This document shows positions 6,659 to 33,648 of a DNA stretch of 64,000 nt, piece by piece. Source of the stretch: Haloarcula limicola (GTDB lineage: Archaea > Halobacteriota > Halobacteria > Halobacteriales > Haloarculaceae); NCBI RefSeq assembly GCF_010119205.1, contig NZ_WRXM01000001.1:1488001-1552000 (forward strand), read 5' to 3'. The notes beneath the pieces were generated by a model. That model had not been told where the DNA came from. It saw nothing but the letters and a program-made list of their open reading frames with translations, and ran no database searches. The stretch's first letter is position 1; each line of letters starts with the position of its first letter. The position numbers and the translations under genes are program-made.

Positions 6659-7804
6659 ATGACACTGCGGCGGGGGGTAGAGCTGGGGCTGGAGGCAGCG
6701 ATGGCGCTGTTTCTCGTCGCCATGGTCGCCGGACAGTTGCTCGGCCAACCCGTGTTGTTGGGCTACGTCACGACTGGCAGCATGCAACCCACGTTGGACC
6801 CGGGCGACGGGTTCGTAGCGGTTCCGGCGGCCGTCGCGGGGCCGATCGAGGAGGGCGACGTGGTCACGTTTCGGGCCGAAGAGCTACACGGCGGGGGGTT
6901 GACGACCCACCGGGTCGTCGACGAGACCGAGCGCGGCTACGTGACCCGGGGCGACAACAACCCGTTTACCGATCAGGACGGCGACGAGCCGCCGGTGACC
7001 GACGCGCAGATAGTCGCCGTCGCCTGGCAGCCCGGCGGGGCGGTGCTGTCGATCCCCGGCGTCGGACTGCTCGTCACCGGCACACAGGACGCCATCGCGG
7101 GGGTACAGCAGCGCCTCGCGGTGCTCACCGGCAGTCGCTCCCTGCTCGGTACGCAGGGTATCGCCTACCTGCTCGTGGCGCTGTCGCTCGGAGCGTACGT
7201 CGCGGACGTGGCGCTGAGCGACGATCGAAAGCGCCAGCGGACCCGGTCGCGAGAGACGGGGACGGACGTCCGCCTCGTCGTCGCCGTCTTCGCGGCGGCG
7301 GTGGTGCTGGCCGCGACGGCGGCGATGGTGGCCCCGGCGGGGAGCACCGAGTTCGGGATCGTCAGCGCCGAGAGCGACGCGCCCGGCAGTCGCGTCATCG
7401 AGACCGGGACCAGCGAGTCGGTGCCGTATCTCCTCCAGAACGGCGGGTTCGTCCCGGTGGTCACGTACTTCGAGCCGGTCACCGACGGCGTCGACGTTCG
7501 ACCGCGGGAGACGCGGATCCCGGGCCGCTCGACGGTCAACGCGACGCTCGTCCTCACCGCGCCGCCGGAGACCGGCTACTACCGGCAGTACCTCGTCGAA
7601 CACCGATACCTGCTGATACTCCCCCAGCCGGCGATTCGAGCGCTCTACGGGGTGCATCCGTGGCTCCCCATCGCCGCCATCGACGGCGTCCTCGGCGGGT
7701 CGTTCTACCTCCTCGGGACGACGCTCGCCGGGACCGGACGCGTCCGCACTCGCTCCCGAGAGGCCCCCTCTCGGTTCGACCGGTTCCTCTCTCGACTCAG
7801 ATAG
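6659..7804 (+). CDS. Signal peptidase I (S26) with C-terminal extension
   Basis: 381 residues. The N-terminal half is an S26 peptidase: membrane helix (13-30), catalytic Ser41 in GSMQPTL, His84 in TTHRVV and Asp99 in TRGDNNP. This is the archaeal/SipW-like Ser-His type, not the bacterial Ser-Lys type. A second helix (165-185) and a third (210-228) follow. A beta-rich extracytoplasmic domain (230-320) and a last hydrophobic stretch (330-360) make it about twice the length of a minimal archaeal enzyme. It lies within a cluster of exported proteins sharing one signal motif, which suggests a dedicated peptidase rather than the housekeeping one. Confidence 0.85.
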   Translation: MTLRRGVELGLEAAMALFLVAMVAGQLLGQPVLLGYVTTGSMQPTLDPGDGFVAVPAAVAGPIEEGDVVTFRAEELHGGGLTTHRVVDETERGYVTRGDNNPFTDQDGDEPPVTDAQIVAVAWQPGGAVLSIPGVGLLVTGTQDAIAGVQQRLAVLTGSRSLLGTQGIAYLLVALSLGAYVADVALSDDRKRQRTRSRETGTDVRLVVAVFAAAVVLAATAAMVAPAGSTEFGIVSAESDAPGSRVIETGTSESVPYLLQNGGFVPVVTYFEPVTDGVDVRPRETRIPGRSTVNATLVLTAPPETGYYRQYLVEHRYLLILPQPAIRALYGVHPWLPIAAIDGVLGGSFYLLGTTLAGTGRVRTRSREAPSRFDRFLSRLR

Positions 7805-16272: not shown

Positions 16273-16861
16273 CACCACGCTGCCGACTGTTCTTTGTTGA
16301 CTCACCCCCGAGCGATAGCGCCGTCTGTCTGGCGAGTCGCTGACTGCTCGACCGACGCGTTTTCGCGTAGACGCGTCGCTCGCCACGCGATAGCGACCAG
16401 CCGGAGTCGCTGATAGCGCTTCTTCGAGACGATCGGGACAGCGTCGCTTTCGGTCCCGTACGCCAGTACCGACAGCGCCGTCGCGGGTTCCGTAGCCGCG
16501 GGAATCGAGGCGTTTCGCGGGTGGAAACGGCCGACTAACCCCTCGGAAACCGCGTCTCTGAGTTCGCTACCCCCACTTGGTAAGCACCTGCGTACTAGCT
16601 CGCTCTAACCGTCGTAAACCGGCTTTTGAACGATAGCTATCGGTGTCAAATCTCGGTCATACAAGCCATAACAAAGGTGTCAACTGGAGCAAAGATGAGC
16701 GATGGCCCCGACAGGTCGACCGACTGCTGTCTCCCAGCGTGAGCGGAGCGGAGGTCACGCCGCTCGGACTCGCTCGCCGCCCGGGAGGGGGGTTCGGCAT
16801 TGGGCTGTCGGTGCCAGTTGAGAATCATGCAAACAGTCACAGCGAACCAGTTAGGGAGAGG
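16273..16861. other. 590-bp gap with possible gene remnant and a palindrome
   Basis: On the minus strand a 100-codon open stretch (16604-16302) lacks any ATG or GTG start but reads like protein (e.g. TALSVLAYGTESDAVPIVSK); it may be a decayed gene fragment. Just upstream of the giant exported-protein gene is a perfect 12-bp palindrome CGATAGCTATCG (16631-16642). No RNA gene was recognised. Confidence 0.3.
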
Positions 16862-19800
16862 ATGAGGGGAGCGAACGAAGCGACGCGACTTCTCGCGGTC
16901 GTGTTTTCGGTCCTGATGATCACGTCGGCGATGGGAATCGGTGCGATGTTCAGCGTCGGGGTAGCGCAGGGTCAGACAGCGGGAGAGACACTGTATCAGG
17001 CGAACGCGGGTGGATCGTTCACCGCGGACGGGGACACCTGGGACCCGCTGATAGACTATCAGGTCGCCGGCGAGGACGAAACGTCGAGTCACGGCCAGCC
17101 GAGCGCGATCGACGACTCGGTCCCGTCCGACACGCCCACGCAGATCTGGGAAACGGAACGGTGGGACCCCGATGGCGGCGAAGAGATGCAGTACGAGTTC
17201 AGCGTCCCGGACGGTCAGCAAGTGGAGGTCCGACTCTACTTCTACGACGGGTACTCGGGAACTAGCAGCGTCGGTGACCGCGTCTTCGACGTGAGCGTCG
17301 AGGACCAGACGGTCGAGGAGTTCGACGTCATCGAGGCGTACGGCGACGACACCGGCGGCATGAAGTCGTTCACTGTCACGAGCGACGGGACGATCGACGT
17401 CGACTTCGCGCACGTGACGGAGAATCCGCAGGTCAACGCCATCGAGATCGTCGCGGCCGAGCCGGAACCCGACACGCTCGGCGGCCCGTCCGATGTCGAC
17501 TTCGGCTCGGTCGTCACCGGCCAGACCGAGTCCGAGACGGTCACCGTGACGAACCTCGGCGGCGACGGCGACTCGAGCATCGACATCTCGGGTGTCTCCG
17601 TCAGCGGCGACGCCGCCTTCTCGGCGGGGTCGGCGTCACAGACGACGCTCGCACCCGGCGAGTCCGCCGACATCCCGGTGACGTTCTCGCCCTCGGAGGT
17701 GGCTACGAAGAGCGCAACGCTCGAAATCAGCCACACGGGGAGCAACAGCCCGCTGACGGTCGACCTGACCGGCGAGGGTGCGAGCGCGGTCGACCCCGGC
17801 TTCTCGAAGAGCCAGCTGCAGGGTTTCAGCGCCAGTAACCCGACGGCCATCGACTTCGGCCCCGACGGCCGCGCCTACGTCTCGACGCAGGGCGGGACCG
17901 TCTACGCGCTCGCGGTCGAGCGCACGGGCGAGAACAGCTACCAGGTCGTCAACGAGGTCCAGATCGACGCGATCAAAGACATTCCGAACCACGACGACCT
18001 CGGAAACCTCGAATCCGGTGAGACCAACCGGCAGATAACCGGTATCACCGCCGGCGGGACCGCCGAGAATCCGGTCGTCTACGTCTCCTCGTCTGACCCC
18101 GAGATCGACGTCGGGCAGGACGACGACGACACGGACACCAACTCCGGTGCCATCTCGCGGCTGACGATTTCGCCCGGTAGCGACGACACGCTGCAGGCGA
18201 GCGAGGTCAGCCACGACGTGATGGTCCTCGGCCTCCCGCGCTCGGAGGAGAACCACGCGACCAACGGCATCGACCTCTCGGCCGACGGCGACACGATGTA
18301 CGTCGCACAGGGGGGTCACACGAACAAGGGCGCGCCGGGCGACAACTTCGGGCACACGCCCGAGTACGCGCTCTCGGCGGCCATCTTGGAGATCGACCTC
18401 GCCCAGATAGAGAGCAACTACCAGGCGAAGAACCTCCAGAACTACGATAGCGACTACCCGGACCTGTCGTTCTACTACGGGATTCCGACCATCCAGAACG
18501 ACGACGCGACGGACGGCGACGACCTGCCGTTCGGCGGCAACGACGGCATCAACCAAGCGAAGCTCGTCGAGGGCGGACCGGTGCAGATCTACTCGCCCGG
18601 CTACCGGAACCCCTACGACCTCGTCGTCACGGAGAGCGGGCAGGTCTACGCGGCCGACCACGGCCCGAACGGCGGCTGGGGCGGCCAGCCCGCCGACGCG
18701 ACCGGAAGCATCGTCGCGGACGCGGCGAGCGTCACGAACCACCCGAACGAGGACGGGAGCTTCAGCACGAACGACCAGCTCGTCAAAGTCGACGAGGGCG
18801 ACTACGGCGGCCACGCCGCGCCCATCCGCGCGAACCCGACCGGCGCGGACATCTACGACGCGAACGGGAACGTGATATTCGACATCAACGCGTCGAACTC
18901 GCCCGTCCCGTCCAGTATGGTGAACCCGGTGGAGGCGGACTACATCCCGCCGACTAGCGACTCGCCCGACCCGGGCGCACCCGCCGGCAGCGCGAACACG
19001 ATGGAGTTCGAGGACGGCGACCCAGTCCTGTTCGGGCCGACCGGCGCGACCACCGAGTACACCGCCTCGAACTTCGGCGGGGCCATGCAGGGCGACCTCG
19101 TGCAGGTCGAACTCGGCGGCGACATCGAACGCGTCGAGCTGAGTGACGACGGCACGACGGTCACGAACGTCGAGACCATCGCCAACACCAACGGCCCTCT
19201 CGGAGCCACCGCACAGGGCGACGACGAGGTGTTCGCCGGGACGGTCTGGACCGCCAACCACGGCAGCGGCGGCCTCACCGTTCTCGAACCCGTCGACTAC
19301 GGCGACAACGATAGCGACGGCGGCACGCAGTGTACCGGCGCGGACGACGCCTCGCTCGACGAGGACGGCGACGGCTACGACAACGCCGACGAGATCGACG
19401 CGGGCACCGACCCGTGTTCGTCGGCCTCGACGCCCGCCGACTTCGACGACGACGGAACGTCGAACCTGAACGACCCGGACGACGACAACGACGGCCTCGA
19501 CGACACCGAGGACCCGTTCGCGGTCGACGCCAGCAACGGTATGGACACGACGCTGCCGGTCGAGCACGACCTGTCCGAACTCAGCCTCTTCGGCGAGAAC
19601 GGACAGGGCTGGACCGGACTGATGATGAACGGCTCGAACTACCAGGACCTCTACGACCCGACGCAGATGACGGTCGGCGGCGCGGCCGAGGTCCTGACCG
19701 TCGAGCAGGTGCCACCGGGAGACGCCTACTCGAACACGAACACCCAGCAGTACGGCTTCCAGTTCGGCGCAGACACGCCCGACGAGCCGTTCACCGTCGA

Positions 19801-22800
19801 GACGACGGTGAGTAGCTTCCCGGACAGCCCGGAGAACTACCAGTCGGCCGGGCTGTTCCTCGGCACCGGCGACCAGTCGAACTACACGAAACTGGTCGTC
19901 GCGGCCGACGGCGGCAACGGCGGCGTCGAGTTCGCCAAGGAGGTCGACGACTCATTCACCCATCCGAGTTCGCCGAACGTCGTCAGCGACAGCGCGGTCA
20001 CGACGTCGCAGACGACGCTCCGCATGACGGTGGACCCGACGACCGATCCCGCGCCGGACAACGGCGTCGAGGAGGTCGCGGTGACCGCCGAGTACGAAGT
20101 CGCGGGTAACACGACCGAAGTCGGAACCGCCGCGGTCCCGGCCAGTTGGTTCGACACCTCTGACGGCGTCGCGCCGGCGTTCGGCGTCATCTCGACGTCC
20201 AACGGCGCGAGCAGCACGTTCTCGGCGACGTGGACCGACATCTCCGTCGAGTACGTCACGCCGCCCGAGAACCAGCCGCCGACGGCCGACGCGGGCGCGG
20301 ACCAGACCGTCGACGAGGGCGCGGACGTGACTCTCGACGCCTCCGGTAGCGACGACCCGGACGGCGACCAGCTCGGGTACACGTGGACCCAGACGGCCGG
20401 TCCCGACGTCAGCCTGAGCGTCAACGACGGCGAGCAGACGACGTTCACCGCGCCCGAGGTCGACGCTGAGACGACGCTGACCTTCGAGGTCAACGTCTCC
20501 GACGGCGAAGACACGGACGCCGACACGGTGAACGTCACCGTCCAGGACACCGACACCGCGCCCGCCGAGGGCGAGGTCGTCTACCGCGTCAACGCCGGCG
20601 GTCAGGAGGTCGCGGCGACTGACGGCGGCCCGGCATGGAGCGCGGACACGGACGTGAGTCCGTCCCAGTACGTCAACGCCGACGGCGACAACGGCCTCAA
20701 CACATACAGCACAGGCGACACGATCACGCTCGACGGCTCGGTGCCGTCGAGCACGCCCGCGTCGGTGTTCCAGACGGAACGCTACGACGAGAACACCAGC
20801 GGATCGGCCGCCGACGACACGGAGATGCAGTGGTCGTTCGACGCGGAGCAGGGTGCGACCTACGAGGTCCGCCTCTACTTCGCCGAGATCTTCCTCGACT
20901 CCTCGAACGTCGGCACCCAGGGTCCGCGGACCTTCGACGTCGTCGTCGAGGGCCAGACGGAACTGGACGACTACAACATCTACCAGCAGTACGGTCACGA
21001 CGTCGGCGCGATGGAGTCCTTCGAGGTGACGCCCTCGGACGGCACCATCGACGTCGCGTTCCTGCACGAGCAGGAGAACCCGAAGATATCCGCCATCGAG
21101 GTCGTCAAAGTCAGCGACAGTAGCGGCAGCGGCGACATGACCGTCGCGGAGGCGGTCGCCAGCTACGACGACGACGGCGACGACACCCAGATAGAGAACG
21201 AGGAGATTCAGGCGGCCGTCAACTGGTGGACCACCGGCAGCGAGGTGCCGAACACCGGTGGCGAGACCATCAGTAATTCGCAGATACAGCAGCTCGTCAA
21301 CATGTGGGCGACCGGCGCTACCGTCGGCGACGGCTCCGGTGACGACGGCGACACCGCTACCGGGTCGGCCCTGGTCGAAGTGACGCCCGACACCGGACTA
21401 GAGACCAGCACCTACGGCAGCGGCTCCTATCAGGTGACGAACACCGGCGAGAAGAACATCTCGTCGGTGTCGTTCGACCTCGATACGGCGACGCTCCCGG
21501 ACATGGTGTTCGACCCGCAGGGAACCGCGGGCGACCCGACCGGTGAGGGGCTCAACATCGCCGACGACGGCGGTACCAACATCACGACAGAGCCCGGCAG
21601 CGGCGAGGCGTTCTCGGAGCCCCACAACGGGCAGAACGCCGACGACGGCTACGACGTGATGACCGTCGAGTTCGCCGACTTCGAGAGCGGCGAGACGGCC
21701 ACCTTCTGGGCCGACAACGACCCGACCAGCATCAAGGGCGCGACGGTCGGCTCCCAGGAGGCCGGCCCGGTCTCCGGACTGGAACTCGCTCGTTCGACGG
21801 TGACGGTCACCTACGAGGACGGGACGACCCAGACCACCCAGCTGATGGGCGACGGCAGCGCCGGCGGGTCGACCGCCGTCGTCACCGACAGCGAGGCCCC
21901 CGCGCCGACCATCGGCGCACAGGACGTCTCGCTCGATGACACCGCGCTCGACGACTACCATAGCGCAGCGACGGTCTCCTCGGCCGACCAGACGGTGACG
22001 GTCACCGGCGAGCCGGGCGAGACGGTCACGCTCGTGCGCGTCGAGGGCGAACTGACGCTGACGAACGTCCCGGACGCCGACGGTGACGGCGAACCGGGCT
22101 ACGAGATCGAGGCCTACGAGGCCAACGACGCCGAAGCGGTCGAGTACTACTCGGTCACGCTCGACGGCGACGGCGAGGCCGCGGTCCCGGTCACGCTGAC
22201 CAACACGACCGGCGACTCGGACGCCGGCAACGCCGGCTACAACTACTTCGTGGCCGCACACGGCGAGGCCAGCGGCGACATGGGCCTCGCATCGAACGTC
22301 GTGGTCCTGAAGTACGAGGAGGGCACCGACGACGGCGACACCGGCGGTTCCGGTGACGTCGCCTTCGCCGTGAACGCTGGCGGGAGCGAGTACACCGCGA
22401 CCGACGGAACGGTCTATCAGGCCGACACGAACTTCGACGGCGGCTCGGCCTACGACACGACGCAGGCCATCGGCGACACCCAGAACGACCCGCTGTACCA
22501 GACCGAGCGGTACGGCGACTTCTGGTACAACGCGTCGGCCCCGAATGGCACCTACGAGGTCACCCTGGAGTTCGCCGAAATCTACCACGGGACCTCACAG
22601 GACAACAACGATGTCAACGGCGACGGCACGAACGTCGGCGACCGCCTGTTCGACGTGAACGCCGAGGGACAGCAGGTCCTGAACGACTACGACATCTACG
22701 CGAACGCCGGGGCGCTCAACGCGACCAACGAGACGGTCACCGTCGAGGTGACCGACGGCGAACTGAACCTGGAGTTCGTCACCGAATCCGACAACGCCAA

Positions 22801-24310
22801 GGTCAGCGCTATCAAGGTCGCGGCAGCCGAGGACGGCTCGGGCGGGTCCAGCGGGACCGCTTCGGCCGACTTCGCCGTCAACGCGAACGGCGGCGTCGAC
22901 GCCAGCACCTACGGTAGCGGTTCCTTCGAGATCGCGAACACCGGCGACCAGCAGATCTCGTCGGTCACTTACGACCTGAGTTCGGCGGCGTTCCCCGACG
23001 TGGTCTTCGACCCGCAGGGGACCGCCGGCGACTCGGGTGCGAAGGGCTTCACGCCCGACAGCGGTGCGAGCGCCGTCTCGCCGTCCGGGTCGTTCGCGGC
23101 ACCGCACAACGGACAGAACGGTGACGACGGCTACGACGAACTGACCGTCGACTTCGGCGACTTCGAGGGCGACGAGTCCTTCGCCTTCTCGACGGACATC
23201 GACCCGACGAGCATCAAGGACGCCTCGGGGACGGGCGCGGCCGGTTCCGTCTCCGGGCTCGAGCTCTCGGGCGCGACGGTGACCGTCGAGTACGCCGACG
23301 GTACCACGCAGACGACGAACCTGTTCGGCGACGGTAGTTCGGGCGGCTCGCAGGCCGCCGCGAAGGCGGACGTCCCGGCCGCGCCGACGACCGGTGCGGA
23401 AGGCGTCACGCTCGATTCGAGCGCGCTCGACAGCCAGCACAGCGCTGCGACGGTCTCCTCGGCCGACCAGACCGTGACGGTCTCCGGGCCGGCCGGTGCG
23501 ACCGTCCAGCTGCTCCACGTCGAGGGCCAGCTCGAACTCGCCAACCAGGCCGACGGCTACGACCTCGAAGCCTACGAGGCTAACACCGCCGAGAACGTCG
23601 GCTACCAGACCGTCCAACTGGACAGTAACGGTCAGGCGACCGTCGACGTCACGCTCACCAACACGTCCGGTAGCGGCGTCGAGGGCGGCTTCAACTACTT
23701 CGTCGCCGCCGTCGAGGACGGCAGCGGCGACACCGGCGCGACGTCGAACGTCGTCGTCATGAAGTACTCCGAGGGGAGCGACTCGTCGGGCACGCAGGTG
23801 CTCCACCGCGTCAACGCCGGTGAGGGGACGACCCTCAGCGCGACCGACGACGGTCCCGACTGGATCGGTGTCGCGGACACCAGTTCACCGTACCTCGCCT
23901 CGGTGGCGAACTCCAGCGCCGGAACCTACTGCAGCGGGAGCATCACCGCGACGACCGCTGCCGTTCCGTCGAGCACCCCCGACGCAGTGTACGACTGCGA
24001 GCGCTACGGCAACTCCACCTGGGAGTTCTCGGTGGACTCCGGTCAGCAGGTCGAGGTGCGACTGTACGTCGGCAACCAGTTCTCCGGCACGAGCGAACCC
24101 GGTGACCGAGATTTCAACGTCTCCGTCGAGGGTCAGCAGGTCCTGACGAACTACGACCCCGTGGCCGACGTCGGCCACCAGACCGGGACGATGAAGAACT
24201 TCACCGTCACCGAGGACGGCGACGGCGCGATTACGGTCACCTTCGACAAAGGAGCCTCCGAGAATCCGCAGGTCAACGCCATCGAGATCGTCGAAGGGGG
24301 GAGCGCGTAA
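16862..24310 (+). CDS. Giant exported malectin/propeller protein (2482 aa)
   Basis: The start at 16862 (RBS-like GGGAGAGG before it) gives a basic, hydrophobic signal sequence ending near VAQGQTAG; the frame is open 73 codons further upstream but that part is not leader-like. Approximate domains: malectin-like (41-203); choice-of-anchor/ASH domain (206-310); sugar-dehydrogenase-type beta-propeller (313-813); thrombospondin-3-like Ca repeats (822-886); concanavalin-like domain (893-1133); PKD (1137-1233); malectin-like (1238-1418); dockerin-like helix pair (1423-1495); module A (1500-1822); malectin-like (1830-1992); module A again (1999-2310); malectin-like (2312-2482). Malectins bind di- and oligosaccharides, so extracellular polysaccharide binding or oxidation is likely. 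There is no C-terminal membrane anchor. Confidence 0.85.
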   Translation: MRGANEATRLLAVVFSVLMITSAMGIGAMFSVGVAQGQTAGETLYQANAGGSFTADGDTWDPLIDYQVAGEDETSSHGQPSAIDDSVPSDTPTQIWETERWDPDGGEEMQYEFSVPDGQQVEVRLYFYDGYSGTSSVGDRVFDVSVEDQTVEEFDVIEAYGDDTGGMKSFTVTSDGTIDVDFAHVTENPQVNAIEIVAAEPEPDTLGGPSDVDFGSVVTGQTESETVTVTNLGGDGDSSIDISGVSVSGDAAFSAGSASQTTLAPGESADIPVTFSPSEVATKSATLEISHTGSNSPLTVDLTGEGASAVDPGFSKSQLQGFSASNPTAIDFGPDGRAYVSTQGGTVYALAVERTGENSYQVVNEVQIDAIKDIPNHDDLGNLESGETNRQITGITAGGTAENPVVYVSSSDPEIDVGQDDDDTDTNSGAISRLTISPGSDDTLQASEVSHDVMVLGLPRSEENHATNGIDLSADGDTMYVAQGGHTNKGAPGDNFGHTPEYALSAAILEIDLAQIESNYQAKNLQNYDSDYPDLSFYYGIPTIQNDDATDGDDLPFGGNDGINQAKLVEGGPVQIYSPGYRNPYDLVVTESGQVYAADHGPNGGWGGQPADATGSIVADAASVTNHPNEDGSFSTNDQLVKVDEGDYGGHAAPIRANPTGADIYDANGNVIFDINASNSPVPSSMVNPVEADYIPPTSDSPDPGAPAGSANTMEFEDGDPVLFGPTGATTEYTASNFGGAMQGDLVQVELGGDIERVELSDDGTTVTNVETIANTNGPLGATAQGDDEVFAGTVWTANHGSGGLTVLEPVDYGDNDSDGGTQCTGADDASLDEDGDGYDNADEIDAGTDPCSSASTPADFDDDGTSNLNDPDDDNDGLDDTEDPFAVDASNGMDTTLPVEHDLSELSLFGENGQGWTGLMMNGSNYQDLYDPTQMTVGGAAEVLTVEQVPPGDAYSNTNTQQYGFQFGADTPDEPFTVETTVSSFPDSPENYQSAGLFLGTGDQSNYTKLVVAADGGNGGVEFAKEVDDSFTHPSSPNVVSDSAVTTSQTTLRMTVDPTTDPAPDNGVEEVAVTAEYEVAGNTTEVGTAAVPASWFDTSDGVAPAFGVISTSNGASSTFSATWTDISVEYVTPPENQPPTADAGADQTVDEGADVTLDASGSDDPDGDQLGYTWTQTAGPDVSLSVNDGEQTTFTAPEVDAETTLTFEVNVSDGEDTDADTVNVTVQDTDTAPAEGEVVYRVNAGGQEVAATDGGPAWSADTDVSPSQYVNADGDNGLNTYSTGDTITLDGSVPSSTPASVFQTERYDENTSGSAADDTEMQWSFDAEQGATYEVRLYFAEIFLDSSNVGTQGPRTFDVVVEGQTELDDYNIYQQYGHDVGAMESFEVTPSDGTIDVAFLHEQENPKISAIEVVKVSDSSGSGDMTVAEAVASYDDDGDDTQIENEEIQAAVNWWTTGSEVPNTGGETISNSQIQQLVNMWATGATVGDGSGDDGDTATGSALVEVTPDTGLETSTYGSGSYQVTNTGEKNISSVSFDLDTATLPDMVFDPQGTAGDPTGEGLNIADDGGTNITTEPGSGEAFSEPHNGQNADDGYDVMTVEFADFESGETATFWADNDPTSIKGATVGSQEAGPVSGLELARSTVTVTYEDGTTQTTQLMGDGSAGGSTAVVTDSEAPAPTIGAQDVSLDDTALDDYHSAATVSSADQTVTVTGEPGETVTLVRVEGELTLTNVPDADGDGEPGYEIEAYEANDAEAVEYYSVTLDGDGEAAVPVTLTNTTGDSDAGNAGYNYFVAAHGEASGDMGLASNVVVLKYEEGTDDGDTGGSGDVAFAVNAGGSEYTATDGTVYQADTNFDGGSAYDTTQAIGDTQNDPLYQTERYGDFWYNASAPNGTYEVTLEFAEIYHGTSQDNNDVNGDGTNVGDRLFDVNAEGQQVLNDYDIYANAGALNATNETVTVEVTDGELNLEFVTESDNAKVSAIKVAAAEDGSGGSSGTASADFAVNANGGVDASTYGSGSFEIANTGDQQISSVTYDLSSAAFPDVVFDPQGTAGDSGAKGFTPDSGASAVSPSGSFAAPHNGQNGDDGYDELTVDFGDFEGDESFAFSTDIDPTSIKDASGTGAAGSVSGLELSGATVTVEYADGTTQTTNLFGDGSSGGSQAAAKADVPAAPTTGAEGVTLDSSALDSQHSAATVSSADQTVTVSGPAGATVQLLHVEGQLELANQADGYDLEAYEANTAENVGYQTVQLDSNGQATVDVTLTNTSGSGVEGGFNYFVAAVEDGSGDTGATSNVVVMKYSEGSDSSGTQVLHRVNAGEGTTLSATDDGPDWIGVADTSSPYLASVANSSAGTYCSGSITATTAAVPSSTPDAVYDCERYGNSTWEFSVDSGQQVEVRLYVGNQFSGTSEPGDRDFNVSVEGQQVLTNYDPVADVGHQTGTMKNFTVTEDGDGAITVTFDKGASENPQVNAIEIVEGGSA
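21361..23790 (+). repeat. Intragenic duplication of module A plus malectin
   Basis: Two copies of a roughly 310-residue module (21361-22325 and 22857-23790) share word-for-word stretches such as VVFDPQGTAGD or VFDPQGTAGD, PHNGQN, DDGYD, DPTSIK and SAATVSSADQTVTV. They are separated by one malectin-like domain, and another malectin-like domain follows the second copy. Confidence 0.8.
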
Positions 24311-29925: not shown

Positions 29926-30204
29926 ATGGGAATTCAATCAGAGAGCGAGTCCGAGACGACGGAAGCGGACGCGACGAGTACGGTCGACGACGTCGCCGAG
30001 TCGACGCCGCTGTCGATGGGCGATCCGGTGGCCACGCTCGCGGCGGGGTCGGTCCTCTACTCGTGGTACAAGTTCTACGGCGAAGGGAACAAGGAAGGCG
30101 GCATCTTCGTCGGCCTGTGGGCACCGACGCTGCTCGCGGCGGCCAGCTATCTCCAGCAGAAGGACGTCATCCAGGCGATCAAGCGCGGCGTCGCCTCGTT
30201 CTGA
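29926..30204 (+). CDS. Small membrane-associated protein
   Basis: 92 residues from the ATG at 29926. An acidic N-terminus (SESESETTEADATSTVDD) is followed by two hydrophobic helices (about 32-46 and 60-76). The C-terminus is basic (IQAIKRGVASF). Longer starts in the frame give an unlikely Arg-rich N-terminus. It is about 110 nt upstream of the GvpH-like gene on the same strand. No known function. Confidence 0.55.
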   Translation: MGIQSESESETTEADATSTVDDVAESTPLSMGDPVATLAAGSVLYSWYKFYGEGNKEGGIFVGLWAPTLLAAASYLQQKDVIQAIKRGVASF

Positions 30205-30312: not shown

Positions 30313-30798
30313 ATGACTTCTGATGACAATACTGATTCAGACGACGGGGGCGGCGATAGTGCCGACAGGGACGGCGGTATCCACATCGAGTTCGGCCTCT
30401 CCTTGAGCGACCTCGTCGACGGCCTTCTCGACGGCGACCGCGCGAGCGACGACCGGGGGAGCCTCGGACGTCGCCCCGAGCGGGCCGGAACCGAGCGGCC
30501 CTCGTCGGGTTCGGACGAGGTCGACGGGCGGAAGCACGACGAGTCGGCGATCGATAGCCACGTCCGAACGTACCGCGAGGGCGACCGGGTGACGGTCGTC
30601 GCCGACCTGCCGGACACCGACTTCGACGACGTCTCGGCCGCGGTCGGCGAGCGCACGAACGACCTCGTGATCCTCGTCGACGAGGCCGTCGTCGACCGGG
30701 TGTCGCTCCCGTGGGAGGTCTTCGAAGTGGACGCCGCGACGTTCAACAACGGCGTGCTGGAGATCCGCGTTCAGGCAGTCGGCGACGCCGCTTCGTAG
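30313..30798 (+). CDS. GvpH-like Hsp20 chaperone
   Basis: 161 residues. The N-terminus is an acidic run followed by IHIEFGLSLSDLVDGLL, resembling gas-vesicle protein GvpH. The C-terminal half is an alpha-crystallin domain: VTVVADLPDTDFDDVSAAV, a beta-strand core, and the conserved ATFNNGVLEIRV end. Small heat-shock proteins hold unfolded clients; GvpH binds the gas-vesicle protein GvpM and others. No gvpA, gvpO or other vesicle gene is visible, so here it is either an orphan or a chaperone for the acidic operon that follows on the other strand. An inverted repeat (GGTCA...TGACC) overlaps the start region. Confidence 0.7.
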   Translation: MTSDDNTDSDDGGGDSADRDGGIHIEFGLSLSDLVDGLLDGDRASDDRGSLGRRPERAGTERPSSGSDEVDGRKHDESAIDSHVRTYREGDRVTVVADLPDTDFDDVSAAVGERTNDLVILVDEAVVDRVSLPWEVFEVDAATFNNGVLEIRVQAVGDAAS

Positions 30799-30846
30799 CG
30801 GACGAGCCGATCGCATCACCTCGAACGCTGAGACCGATATCGCTCG

Positions 30847-30942
30847 CTACAGCAGGGACCGCAGCAGGCGCAACGGGAACGTGATGATAGCGATGAGTAA
30901 GTTGATGATCCGCTGGAGTATCGCGCGAACGCTACTGAGCAT
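30847..30942 (-). CDS. 31-residue amphipathic membrane peptide
   Basis: A short frame starting MLSSVRAILQ and ending LLRSLL, with a central hydrophobic helix (NLLIAIITFPL) flanked by arginines on both sides. The composition and length are those of small membrane peptides, and it is not antisense to any gene. It sits between the GvpH-like gene and the four-gene acidic operon. No Shine-Dalgarno is clear, as is common for leaderless haloarchaeal genes. Translation is inferred only. Confidence 0.45.
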   Translation of the reverse strand: MLSSVRAILQRIINLLIAIITFPLRLLRSLL

Positions 30943-31042
30943 GTGCAACGTTATCGTTCGTCACCGACATAGCGTTTCGGCACGCATATGCCGGCAGTGT
31001 CGGAAAATCCGACGCCGCGGGTGACGACCACGAAGCGCTCAC

Positions 31043-31921
31043 TCACTCCTCGTCGTCGTCGGCGGACGAGGGCTGCAACGTCGAGAGCCGTCGCGGTTGG
31101 CGCATATCCGACCGGTTCGCCGAGGGGACCGAGGAGAACGTGCTTCGCCGGTGACCGGGGTCGGCAGCGGTGTCCGTGTCGTCGTTCTCGGCCGTCGGCG
31201 TTTCGTCCGTGTCATCGCTCTCGGCCGTCGACGTCTCGTCGGACTCGTCGGATTCCGTCAACTGGTCGCGAAGCGACGACTGAGCCGCTTCTATCTCCTC
31301 GCGGAAGTCCTCGAGCGAGGAAGTCAGCTCCACGTCGAGTTCCTCGCCGAACTGCGACATCGGGTCCGTCGACTCGTCGCCGTCCGCGTCCGAACTGGCG
31401 TCCGGCGCGCCCGAACCCTCCGCCTCCGGTTCGCTCTCCGCTTCGGACTCTCCGGCCGTCCCGGATCGGTCCTCGTCTGCCGCTTCGTCGGCGCGCTCGT
31501 CCGCTTCGCCCTCTGTCTCCGACTCTCCTTGGCCCTCGTCTTCGACCGCGGCCGTCGCGTCCTCCGGAGCGGTGAGTTCTCGCAGCTCTTCGAGCGGCTC
31601 CGCCGCCGCGTCGTCCCCCGTCTCGGACAGCTCCGAGAGCAAGAAGAGCGTCCGCAACTCGGCGACCGACTCGGGGTCGCTCTCCGAGAGCGCCTTCGGT
31701 ATCGTCTCCGGGCCGCTCCCCTCCGGCAGGTCCGTGCCCGTCGCTTCCAGCAGCGCTTCGGTGTCGGCGCTCTCGATCAGGTCGTCGGCCTCGGCGGCCA
31801 CGTCCCGGAGTGACGACGACGGCTCCTCGTCCGATTCCCCGTCGCCGAGTTCCTCGCGAACCGCTCGAAGCAGTTGCTCGACCCGGTCTTCCATCGGTCT
31901 CTCGTCCGTGTCCTCTGTCAT
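31043..31921 (-). CDS. Acidic operon protein 4 (unknown function)
   Basis: 292 residues. A helical N-terminal part (MEDRVEQLLRAVREELGDGE, then about 35-105 with PKALSESDPESVAELRTLFL) is followed by long acidic low-complexity tracts rich in E, D, S, A and T. A helix near 205-225 (MSQFGEELDVELTSSLEDF) interrupts these, and the protein ends in a basic stretch (HRRSTF...RQPRR) before a last acidic run. No membrane segment or catalytic motif. It is the fourth gene of a minus-strand operon, 36 nt after protein 3. The function is not known to me. Confidence 0.7.
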   Translation of the reverse strand: MTEDTDERPMEDRVEQLLRAVREELGDGESDEEPSSSLRDVAAEADDLIESADTEALLEATGTDLPEGSGPETIPKALSESDPESVAELRTLFLLSELSETGDDAAAEPLEELRELTAPEDATAAVEDEGQGESETEGEADERADEAADEDRSGTAGESEAESEPEAEGSGAPDASSDADGDESTDPMSQFGEELDVELTSSLEDFREEIEAAQSSLRDQLTESDESDETSTAESDDTDETPTAENDDTDTAADPGHRRSTFSSVPSANRSDMRQPRRLSTLQPSSADDDEE

Positions 31922-31957
31922 TGTTCGTCCGTTCGGTTTCTCGCCGCGGTCGCGTCC

Positions 31958-32680
31958 TCACTCGTCCGATTCGCCCGATTCGTCGGTCGAGTCTTCGCCG
32001 TCGTCCGAGCCCTCCTCGGCCGTGAACTCCTCGACGATGCGCTCTCGCATCGTCTCCGTGTCGAGGTTCGCCTTCACGCCGACCTTCTTCGCGATGGACT
32101 GCAGCTCGTCGTAGGACATCAGGTCGAGGATCTCCCGGAGCGTCTCTTCGCGGAGGTTGTCGAGCTCCTCGGGAGAGGTGACGCCCGCCCCGTCTTCGCC
32201 GTCCGCCTCTGCTTCGGCTTCCTCGGCCTCGTCGGCCGCTTCCGACCCGGCTGCCTCGACCGATTCGTCGTCTGCGCTCGACTCGTCTTCGCCCGCCTCG
32301 TCGGCCGATTCTTCGTCTGTCCCTTCCTCGTCTGCCGTTTCCTCGGGAAGCGAGCGCGCGGTCTCTCGGATCTCCGCCAGCGCCGAGTCGGCGTCGGCGT
32401 CCGTGAGCAACTCTGAGAACACCGCGACGAGGAACTCGCGGACCTCTCCGAGGACGTCGTCCGACGAGTTCCCCTCTTGTAGTCCGTTGGCGACGAGTTC
32501 GCCGACCGAGCGACCGAGGACCGCCCCGATCTCGCCGCCGATGCGAGCCCCGACCGCGTGTCCCGGCGACGCTTCCTCGTCTCCGTCCCCGGCTAACTCG
32601 TCCGGCACCCAATCGAGGGAGTCGGTTAGCACGGCTACCGATTCCGTGACGGCGTCGGCCACTCTGGACGTATCACTCAT
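31958..32680 (-). CDS. Acidic operon protein 3 with SAP-like C-terminus
   Basis: 240 residues. A glycine-zipper-like helix (about 43-68, GHAVGARIGGEIGAVLGRSV) resembles the core of protein 2. A helical segment follows (75-115), then an acidic linker, then a compact C-terminal helix-turn-helix of SAP/HeH style (LDNLREETLREILDLMSYDE, then LQSIAKKVGVKANLDTETMR). SAP motifs often bind nucleic acid. Gene order and a 21-nt gap to protein 2 show an operon. No homologue with known function is recognised. Confidence 0.7.
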   Translation of the reverse strand: MSDTSRVADAVTESVAVLTDSLDWVPDELAGDGDEEASPGHAVGARIGGEIGAVLGRSVGELVANGLQEGNSSDDVLGEVREFLVAVFSELLTDADADSALAEIRETARSLPEETADEEGTDEESADEAGEDESSADDESVEAAGSEAADEAEEAEAEADGEDGAGVTSPEELDNLREETLREILDLMSYDELQSIAKKVGVKANLDTETMRERIVEEFTAEEGSDDGEDSTDESGESDE

Positions 32681-32701
32681 GGTTCCCGTCGGTTCGGTCG
32701 T

Positions 32702-33037
32702 TCATTCCTCGTCATCGTCCGAATCGGTCCCGTCGTCGCTCTCTTCGGCGCTCTCCCCATCCGTCGCTTCGTCTCCCTCCGACTCCTCGTTTTCGTCCGT
32801 CTCGTCGTCCGACCCCTCGAGTAGCTGCCCGATCAGCATCGCGCCGAGGTAGCCACCGAGGAGTTCCCCGAGCTTGCGACCGGCCAGCTCGCCCAGCCTG
32901 CGGCCGACGGCTTCCGTTATGTCGCCGTCCTCCTGCTCGATCCCCTCCAGTTTCGTCCCCTCGAACAGCTCCTCGTAGTCGAGGTTCGACAGTATCTCGC
33001 TCGTGTCGACGGCGGACGCGAGTGCGTCGTCGCTCAT
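32702..33037 (-). CDS. Acidic operon protein 2 with glycine-zipper core
   Basis: 111 residues. The middle (43-73) is an amphipathic, glycine-spaced helix: AVGRRLGELAGRKLGELLGG followed by YLGAMLIGQLL. Such a helix can insert in a membrane or self-associate. The last third is almost only D, E, S and T. Its ATG overlaps the stop of protein 1 by 4 nt (ATGA), so translation is coupled. The core resembles that of protein 3, suggesting the two are distant paralogues. Confidence 0.7.
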   Translation of the reverse strand: MSDDALASAVDTSEILSNLDYEELFEGTKLEGIEQEDGDITEAVGRRLGELAGRKLGELLGGYLGAMLIGQLLEGSDDETDENEESEGDEATDGESAEESDDGTDSDDDEE

Positions 33038-33648
33038 GAGTCGTCGCTCTCCTCCGTCTCGTCACCGCTCGACGAGTCCGAACTGGACGACTGGGTCAAC
33101 TGCGTGACCAGCTCGCTGATGAACTGGCTGACGAACTTCTCGATGGGGATGTCGTCCACCACGGACTGGGCCGACCCCTTGACGTACTCGCCCAGACCGC
33201 CGGAGTCGGAGTCGTCGTCCCCGTCGCCGCCGCCGAGCAGTCCGCCGCCGAGACCGCTCAGCAGGCTCCCGAGACCCGGTCCGTCGAGCAGGCCCGAAAC
33301 CGCCGAGAGCAGGTTTCCGAGCAGGTTCCCGTCGCCCTTGCTCGCGGTCACGTCGAGTTCGACCTCGTCCAGGTCGACCTCGAGTCCGAGGAGATCGACG
33401 AAGAGCCCCTCAAGGTCGAGATAGAGGACGCCCGTGTCGCCGTCGCCCTCTTCCGCGCCTTGCTCGCTCTCCTGGTTTTCGGTCTCCTGATTTTCGGTTC
33501 CCTCGTTCTCGCTCTCCTCGGTGTCGTCGGCCTCCGCCTCCGCTTCGTCGGCGTCCGAGTCGTCGCTCTCTTCGTCCTCGCCGCCGTCCGTAATCAGCCG
33601 TCGCGTCGTCTCGGGGTCCGTGGACACGTCCTCGGTAGAGTCTGCCAT
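33034..33648 (-). CDS. Acidic operon protein 1 with conserved LLGN core
   Basis: 204 residues from the ATG at 33648; the frame is open further upstream but without protein character. Residues 20-70 are a very acidic tail. A compact hydrophobic core (73-140) then reads VLYLDLEGLFVDLLGLEVDL, DEVELDVTA and GNLLGNLLSAVSGLLDG, followed by a Gly-Leu repeat. A helix (153-186, ending QFISELVTQL) and another acidic tail end the protein. I recall similar GNLLGNLL cores in uncharacterised bacterial proteins, but cannot check. It is the first gene of the operon and overlaps protein 2. Confidence 0.7.
   Translation of the reverse strand: MADSTEDVSTDPETTRRLITDGGEDEESDDSDADEAEAEADDTEESENEGTENQETENQESEQGAEEGDGDTGVLYLDLEGLFVDLLGLEVDLDEVELDVTASKGDGNLLGNLLSAVSGLLDGPGLGSLLSGLGGGLLGGGDGDDDSDSGGLGEYVKGSAQSVVDDIPIEKFVSQFISELVTQLTQSSSSDSSSGDETEESDDS

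Follow-up and report, generated by a model that had tools for sequence, protein, structure and literature searches.

A conserved operon for acidic proteins in Haloarcula limicola is probably a gas-vesicle accessory module detached from the main gvp cluster

Introduction

Archaeal gas-vesicle genetics is based on the Halobacterium and Haloferax clusters. Here we ask what is done by four consecutive genes for very acidic proteins, P1 to P4, which stand beside a GvpH-family gene in a stretch of 64,000 nucleotides from Haloarcula limicola (GCF_010119205.1, contig NZ_WRXM01000001.1; this stretch is called the window, and coordinates are positions in it). Having no gvpA in view, a sequence-only reading set these genes apart from gas vesicles. 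We find that P1, P2 and P4 track gvpA across the class Halobacteria, which makes a gas-vesicle accessory role of the genes very likely; that the operon and the GvpH gene form an accessory module detached from the main gvp cluster is also likely. The features are the following, all with predicted start codons.

P1, 33034..33648, minus strand: 204 residues; acidic N-terminal tail, conserved core VLYLDLEGLFVDLLGLEV...GNLLGNLL, amphipathic C-terminal helix.
P2, 32702..33037, minus strand: 111 residues; conserved N-terminus DTSEI..NLDYEELFEGT.LEG, glycine-zipper amphipathic helix, acidic tail.
P3, 31958..32680, minus strand: 240 residues; glycine-zipper helix, helical segment, acidic linker, SAP/Rho_N-like C-terminal domain.
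P4, 31043..31921, minus strand: 292 residues; putative acidic GvpI-like paralogue, doubled ST(M/V)P motif at its end.
Peptide open reading frame (ORF), 30847..30942, minus strand: 31 residues, hydrophobic and arginine-rich, downstream of P4.
GvpH-family gene, 30313..30798, plus strand: small heat-shock-like protein with a PF05455 match.

Results

Co-occurrence with gvpA

Among 292 Halobacteria genomes, counted as gvpA-positive when they had a PF00741 match, such a match was found in 120, P1 in 96, P2 in 99 and P4 in 100. P1 was present in 96 of the 120 gvpA-positive genomes versus 0 of the 172 negative ones (Fisher ~1e-54), and all 99 carriers of P2 were likewise gvpA-positive, with 0/172 on the negative side (Fisher ~2e-57). 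For P4, the exceptions were three weak matches (E 5e-5 to 6e-4). Since genomes are not independent, the genus count, by which alone kinship was allowed for in these statistics, is the safer figure: P1 was found in 35 genera, 35/35 of them with gvpA, and gvpA itself in 47 of 77 genera (Fisher 8e-12).

Gene order in relatives

A P1 profile scan over 84,980 species genomes gave 51 loci. Their titles are haloarchaeal in every case but one, a metagenome-assembled genome (MAG) labelled only Euryarchaeota, which itself has a gvp cluster. The order P1-P2-P3-P4 is kept in 40 of the 51, as the sequence-only reading had expected of a conserved operon accompanied by a gene for a GvpH-type (predicted) holdase; no description of this operon was found in the open-access papers searched, and an earlier one elsewhere is possible.

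In at least 10 of the 51 loci (L093, L098, L099, L101, L102, L103, L106, L109, L121 and L138) gvp genes are present on the same locus, and in 18 sampled genomes P1 lies at most about 5 kilobases (kb) from a gvpA-family gene. The order gvpG-gvpH-P1-P2-gvpI was seen in L098, L102, L103 and in genome G039, whose cluster reads gvpO-A-F-G-H-P1-P2-I-J-K-L-M. Elsewhere P1-P4 directly follow gvpM (L093, gvpO-A-F-G-H-I-J-K-L-M-P1-P2-P3-P4), or P1 and P2 adjoin gvpO/gvpA (L138 and L121). Gene fusions, in which P1 is extended at the C-terminus by a glycine zipper of the P2 type (L109/L110) or P2 is joined to a P3 tail (L047), suggest that P1, P2 and P3 work together.

Several other features of these loci were recorded. 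In Halococcus (L109:9002-10864) and a related MAG (L110:9359-10687) the P1 N-terminus comes with repeated Ig/PEGA-like segments, and Haladaptatus halobius has three copies of the P1-P4 operon (L095, L104, L105), one of them on a plasmid that also bears a gvp cluster. A possible further member of the module, a small protein containing two CxxC pairs, adjoins gvpO and P1 in several genomes (L048:10779-11117, L047, L121, L138, L101). A plasmid search with P4 as query gave no match.

The gvp cluster on another contig and the GvpH gene

The three PF00741 matches of the H. limicola genome are all on contig C3, so that the earlier statement that no gvpA is present holds for the window and fails for the genome. 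The C3 cluster consists of gvpO and gvpA on the minus strand and gvpF, gvpG, a GvpI-like gene, gvpJ, gvpK, gvpL and gvpM on the plus strand; it is without gvpH. A GvpC profile search of the genome gave no match, and GvpN gave none above cut-off.

The missing gvpH has its counterpart in the window. The protein of 30313-30798 matches PF05455 with E 2.4e-9 and 38 bits (cut-off 22), in keeping with the GvpH-like Hsp20 noted there before, and its gene is the sole PF05455 gene of the genome. Its strongest matches outside Haloarcula include several gvpH genes within gvp clusters (G048, G050, G039), and most other gvp clusters read have their gvpH inside the cluster (e.g. L048, L051, L143, L144, L147). 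In relatives the GvpH-like gene thus belongs with the gvp clusters, one of the outcomes that the sequence-only reading had named as counting against it. The window gene resembles these gvpH genes and the GvpH of Halobacterium, but differs in its position, being found beside P1-P4 on a contig other than that of the gvp cluster and not between gvpG and gvpI/J. The same split layout is present in Haloarcula amylovorans, with gvp genes on C29 and P1-P4 plus gvpH on C30. Among 32 Haloarcula genomes gvpA occurs in 3 and the operon in only 2 of those; the third (G003) is without P1 and P2, and its gvp cluster is without gvpH. PF05455 by itself was rejected as proof of a gas-vesicle role, because a Haloferax volcanii control also matches, yet this organism is described as being without any gvp genes (PMC7688916).

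Taken together, the gvp cluster on another contig, the operons in or beside gvp clusters and the restriction of P1 to gvpA-positive genomes show that the reading of these genes as separate from gas vesicles was wrong.

Three further genes were seen near the C3 cluster. A 183-residue acidic protein with a glycine-spaced helix and no Pfam family (L053:3443-3994) lies a few kb away, and two BAT/HTH_10 regulator genes (L053:5688-6323 and 6957-7619) adjoin it, as such genes also do in L145 and L146; the Haloarcula gvp clusters are without gvpD/gvpE, and the adjoining BAT/HTH_10 genes are candidate substitute regulators.

P4 and GvpI

No Pfam or NCBIfam family matched P1-P4 above cut-off, but a profile comparison (hhalign) of P4 with GvpI gave a distant match of probability 98.9 and E 2.3e-17, a score that comes partly from the helical middle of extended GvpI. 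This helical middle region is common to P4 and the extended GvpI of Natrialba and Haloterrigena (Nmag_0338, Htur_2370; PMC3403918); the long N-terminal extension of GvpI in haloarchaea without GvpC was noted in 2012 (PMC3403918). P4 also has the C-terminal motif NP.AHSTMP...HSTVP, and in alignments its doubled ST(M/V)P is common to GvpI of Halobacterium pNRC100; the doubled HST(M/V)P is likewise shared with the extended proteins. In contrast to GvpI, P4 is very acidic (isoelectric point, pI, 4.05, against 10.8 for GvpI; PMC9501494) and ends soon after the second ST motif, without the terminal segment YS....R.YG.R. It also coexists with a true GvpI, since the gvpH-gvpJ slot on C3 is taken by a separate GvpI-like gene that is not P4. 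Because of its acidity, its different terminus and this separate GvpI, P4 is, as judged from sequence, an acidic GvpI-like paralogue. Relatives among solved structures were sought for P1 and P4, and none was convincing.

P1, P2 and P3

The GNLLGNLL core of P1 and the glycine-spaced helices of P2 and P3, pointed out before, are all present. Profile comparison shows the glycine-zipper helix to be common to P2 and P3, and when the 18-residue windows of the region are compared for amphipathicity, these zippers rank among the highest, although this is a maximum per protein and only suggestive. The SAP-like end ascribed earlier to P3 could be upheld only in weak form. Its last 45 residues are predicted as helix-extended loop-helix, like SAP and Rho_N domains, and Rho_N matches were obtained in 6/32 members (best E 0.002); P3 stays below the Rho_N/SAP family thresholds, Foldseek gave SAP-domain matches with probability up to 0.93 but E > 1, and the rest of P3 is unrelated. 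A protein with a Tat-like signal region on contig C2 of the same genome (L052:9691-10362) has the P1 core repeated at its end (LLGLEVSLSEITLDLTAVAGSGNLLGNLLCAVAGLLDP); this core also occurs outside a gas-vesicle context.

Mutual exclusion with GvpC and GvpD

We have also compared P1 with GvpC and GvpD in 80 gvpA-positive genomes, of which the 56 with P1 were chosen for family coverage and not at random. GvpC was present in 11/24 genomes without P1 versus 0/56 with it (Fisher 2e-7). GvpD, counted only at E < 1e-70 (eight PF07088 matches, those of E 1e-8 or weaker being left out), was found at full strength in 8/24 versus 0/56. Even within one genus (g35), G071 has GvpC and GvpD, and another species, G066, has P1. 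Neither P1 nor GvpC was found in 12-13 genomes, and therefore neither is indispensable.

Like GvpC, P1-P3 are acidic, putatively accessory proteins with amphipathic helices that occur only in gas-vesicle genomes; unlike it, they are small separate proteins with glycine-zipper helices, and they have no detectable sequence relation to GvpC.

Composition, selection and neighbouring genes

The four-gene minus-strand layout from 33648 to 31043 was reproduced from the ORF coordinates, with a 4-nucleotide ATGA overlap of P1 and P2 and gaps of 21 nucleotides (P2-P3) and 36 nucleotides (P3-P4). Asp and Glu make up 29–35% of P1-P4, compared with a mean of 18% for window ORFs of more than 100 residues, and the pI values are about 4.05. 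The ratios of nonsynonymous to synonymous substitution rates (dN/dS) against H. amylovorans (L045/L092) are 0.13-0.23 for P1-P4 and the GvpH-family protein; these are therefore real, constrained proteins under purifying selection. No operon protein had a PADLOC match, and a defence system was rejected.

The 31-residue peptide beside the operon was found as reported, at 30942-30847 on the minus strand. Its dN/dS is ~0.19 against H. amylovorans, a value based on only 11 differences, and its similarity to the LPFR family is weak and below cut-off. It was rejected as a conserved part of the module: an 87%-identical copy occurs only in H. amylovorans, and the peptide is not downstream of P4 elsewhere. 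A 92-residue protein with a hydrophobic segment and no Pfam family (29926-30204) is kept beside gvpH in H. amylovorans, and a 2555-residue ORF lies at 16643-24310.

Discussion

From these data, the module probably acts in the assembly, shape or surface of vesicles that lack GvpC. GvpH and GvpI of Halobacterium are strong binding partners; without GvpI the vesicles become very long, without GvpH they are weak, and GvpH prevents the aggregation of GvpM (PMC7688916); GvpI also interacts with GvpC (PMC9501494). By homology we favour, with some reserve, a pairing of P4 with GvpH like that of GvpI with GvpH in Halobacterium. Such a pair would hold P1-P3, which are prone to aggregate, in solution and hand them over to the GvpA shell as it grows. 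There the amphipathic zipper helices of P2 and P3 and the hydrophobic core of P1 could self-associate or attach to the shell, and the acidic tails would point into the salt-rich cytoplasm. In vesicles without GvpC, the module might then control assembly, shape or strength in its place. A shell-surface, GvpC-like role for P1-P3, suggested mainly by the GvpC exclusion and the character of the proteins, is tentative. Equally speculative is the wider picture of two haloarchaeal vesicle types, one with GvpC and GvpDE, the other, which would be that of most sampled gvpA-positive haloarchaea, with a GvpC-independent coat or shape-control layer of P1-P3 brought onto the GvpA shell by P4-GvpH.

Several observations weigh against a gas-vesicle accessory module. 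Most operons, mainly in Natrialbaceae but also in Haloarcula, are unlinked to a gvp cluster, so that in these the tie to gas vesicles is one of co-occurrence, a measure that can be inflated by shared ancestry. Twenty-four gvpA-positive genomes are without P1, 12-13 of them also without GvpC, and the module is therefore not universally required. For species of Natrialba and Haladaptatus whose clusters are without GvpC, an absence of gas vesicles has been reported (PMC4390858). The AlphaFold model of P1 (predicted local distance difference test score 54) is too poor for use, and the literature search found neither an experiment on these proteins nor expression or vesicle data for their genes.

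The exclusion of P1 and GvpD also makes a regulatory role possible, in which P1-P4 would replace GvpD/GvpE and the SAP/Rho_N-like domain of P3 would bind nucleic acid and set gvp expression. True GvpD never occurs with P1, and the C-terminus of P3 would suit this role; however, the SAP-family matches are sub-threshold, P1 and P2 have no nucleic-acid-binding family, P4 is similar to GvpI, which is an assembly accessory and not a regulator, and the BAT/HTH_10 genes adjoining Haloarcula gvp clusters are better candidates. We consider this explanation improbable.

Even less probable is a separate assembly, membrane-lining or condensate-like, that is co-inherited with gas vesicles only through a common habitat. 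The physical separation of most operons from gvp genes would fit it, and the protein composition suits a condensate, but no P1-positive genome without gvpA was found among the 292, P1/P2 are flanked by gvpH and gvpI in several lineages, and P4 and GvpH are Gvp-family proteins. Of the small assembly proposed from the window, what survives is that these proteins plausibly build or decorate one; it is not separate from gas vesicles, and a membrane-lining structure found no support. That P1 could be a divergent member of the GvpA/GvpJ/GvpM shell-protein family is very improbable: its LLGLEV...ELDVTAS resembles the GvpA hairpin LVGIEI...ARVVAAS by eye, and its low-confidence model shows a helix after a beta hairpin, but P1 has no Pfam match, and hhalign against GvpA, GvpJ, GvpM and the three combined gave probabilities of 0.2-0.7%, not above those of unrelated controls.

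By these counts, about 80% of the sampled gvpA-bearing haloarchaea appear to use an extra conserved gene set that excludes GvpC, and three of its families, P1-P3, match nothing named. Two questions become testable: how vesicles without GvpC are shaped and reinforced, and whether the clusters of Natrialba, Natrinema and Haladaptatus that are taken to be complete but silent seem so because genes they need are located elsewhere in the genome. P1-P4 could also provide new parts for engineered gas vesicles.

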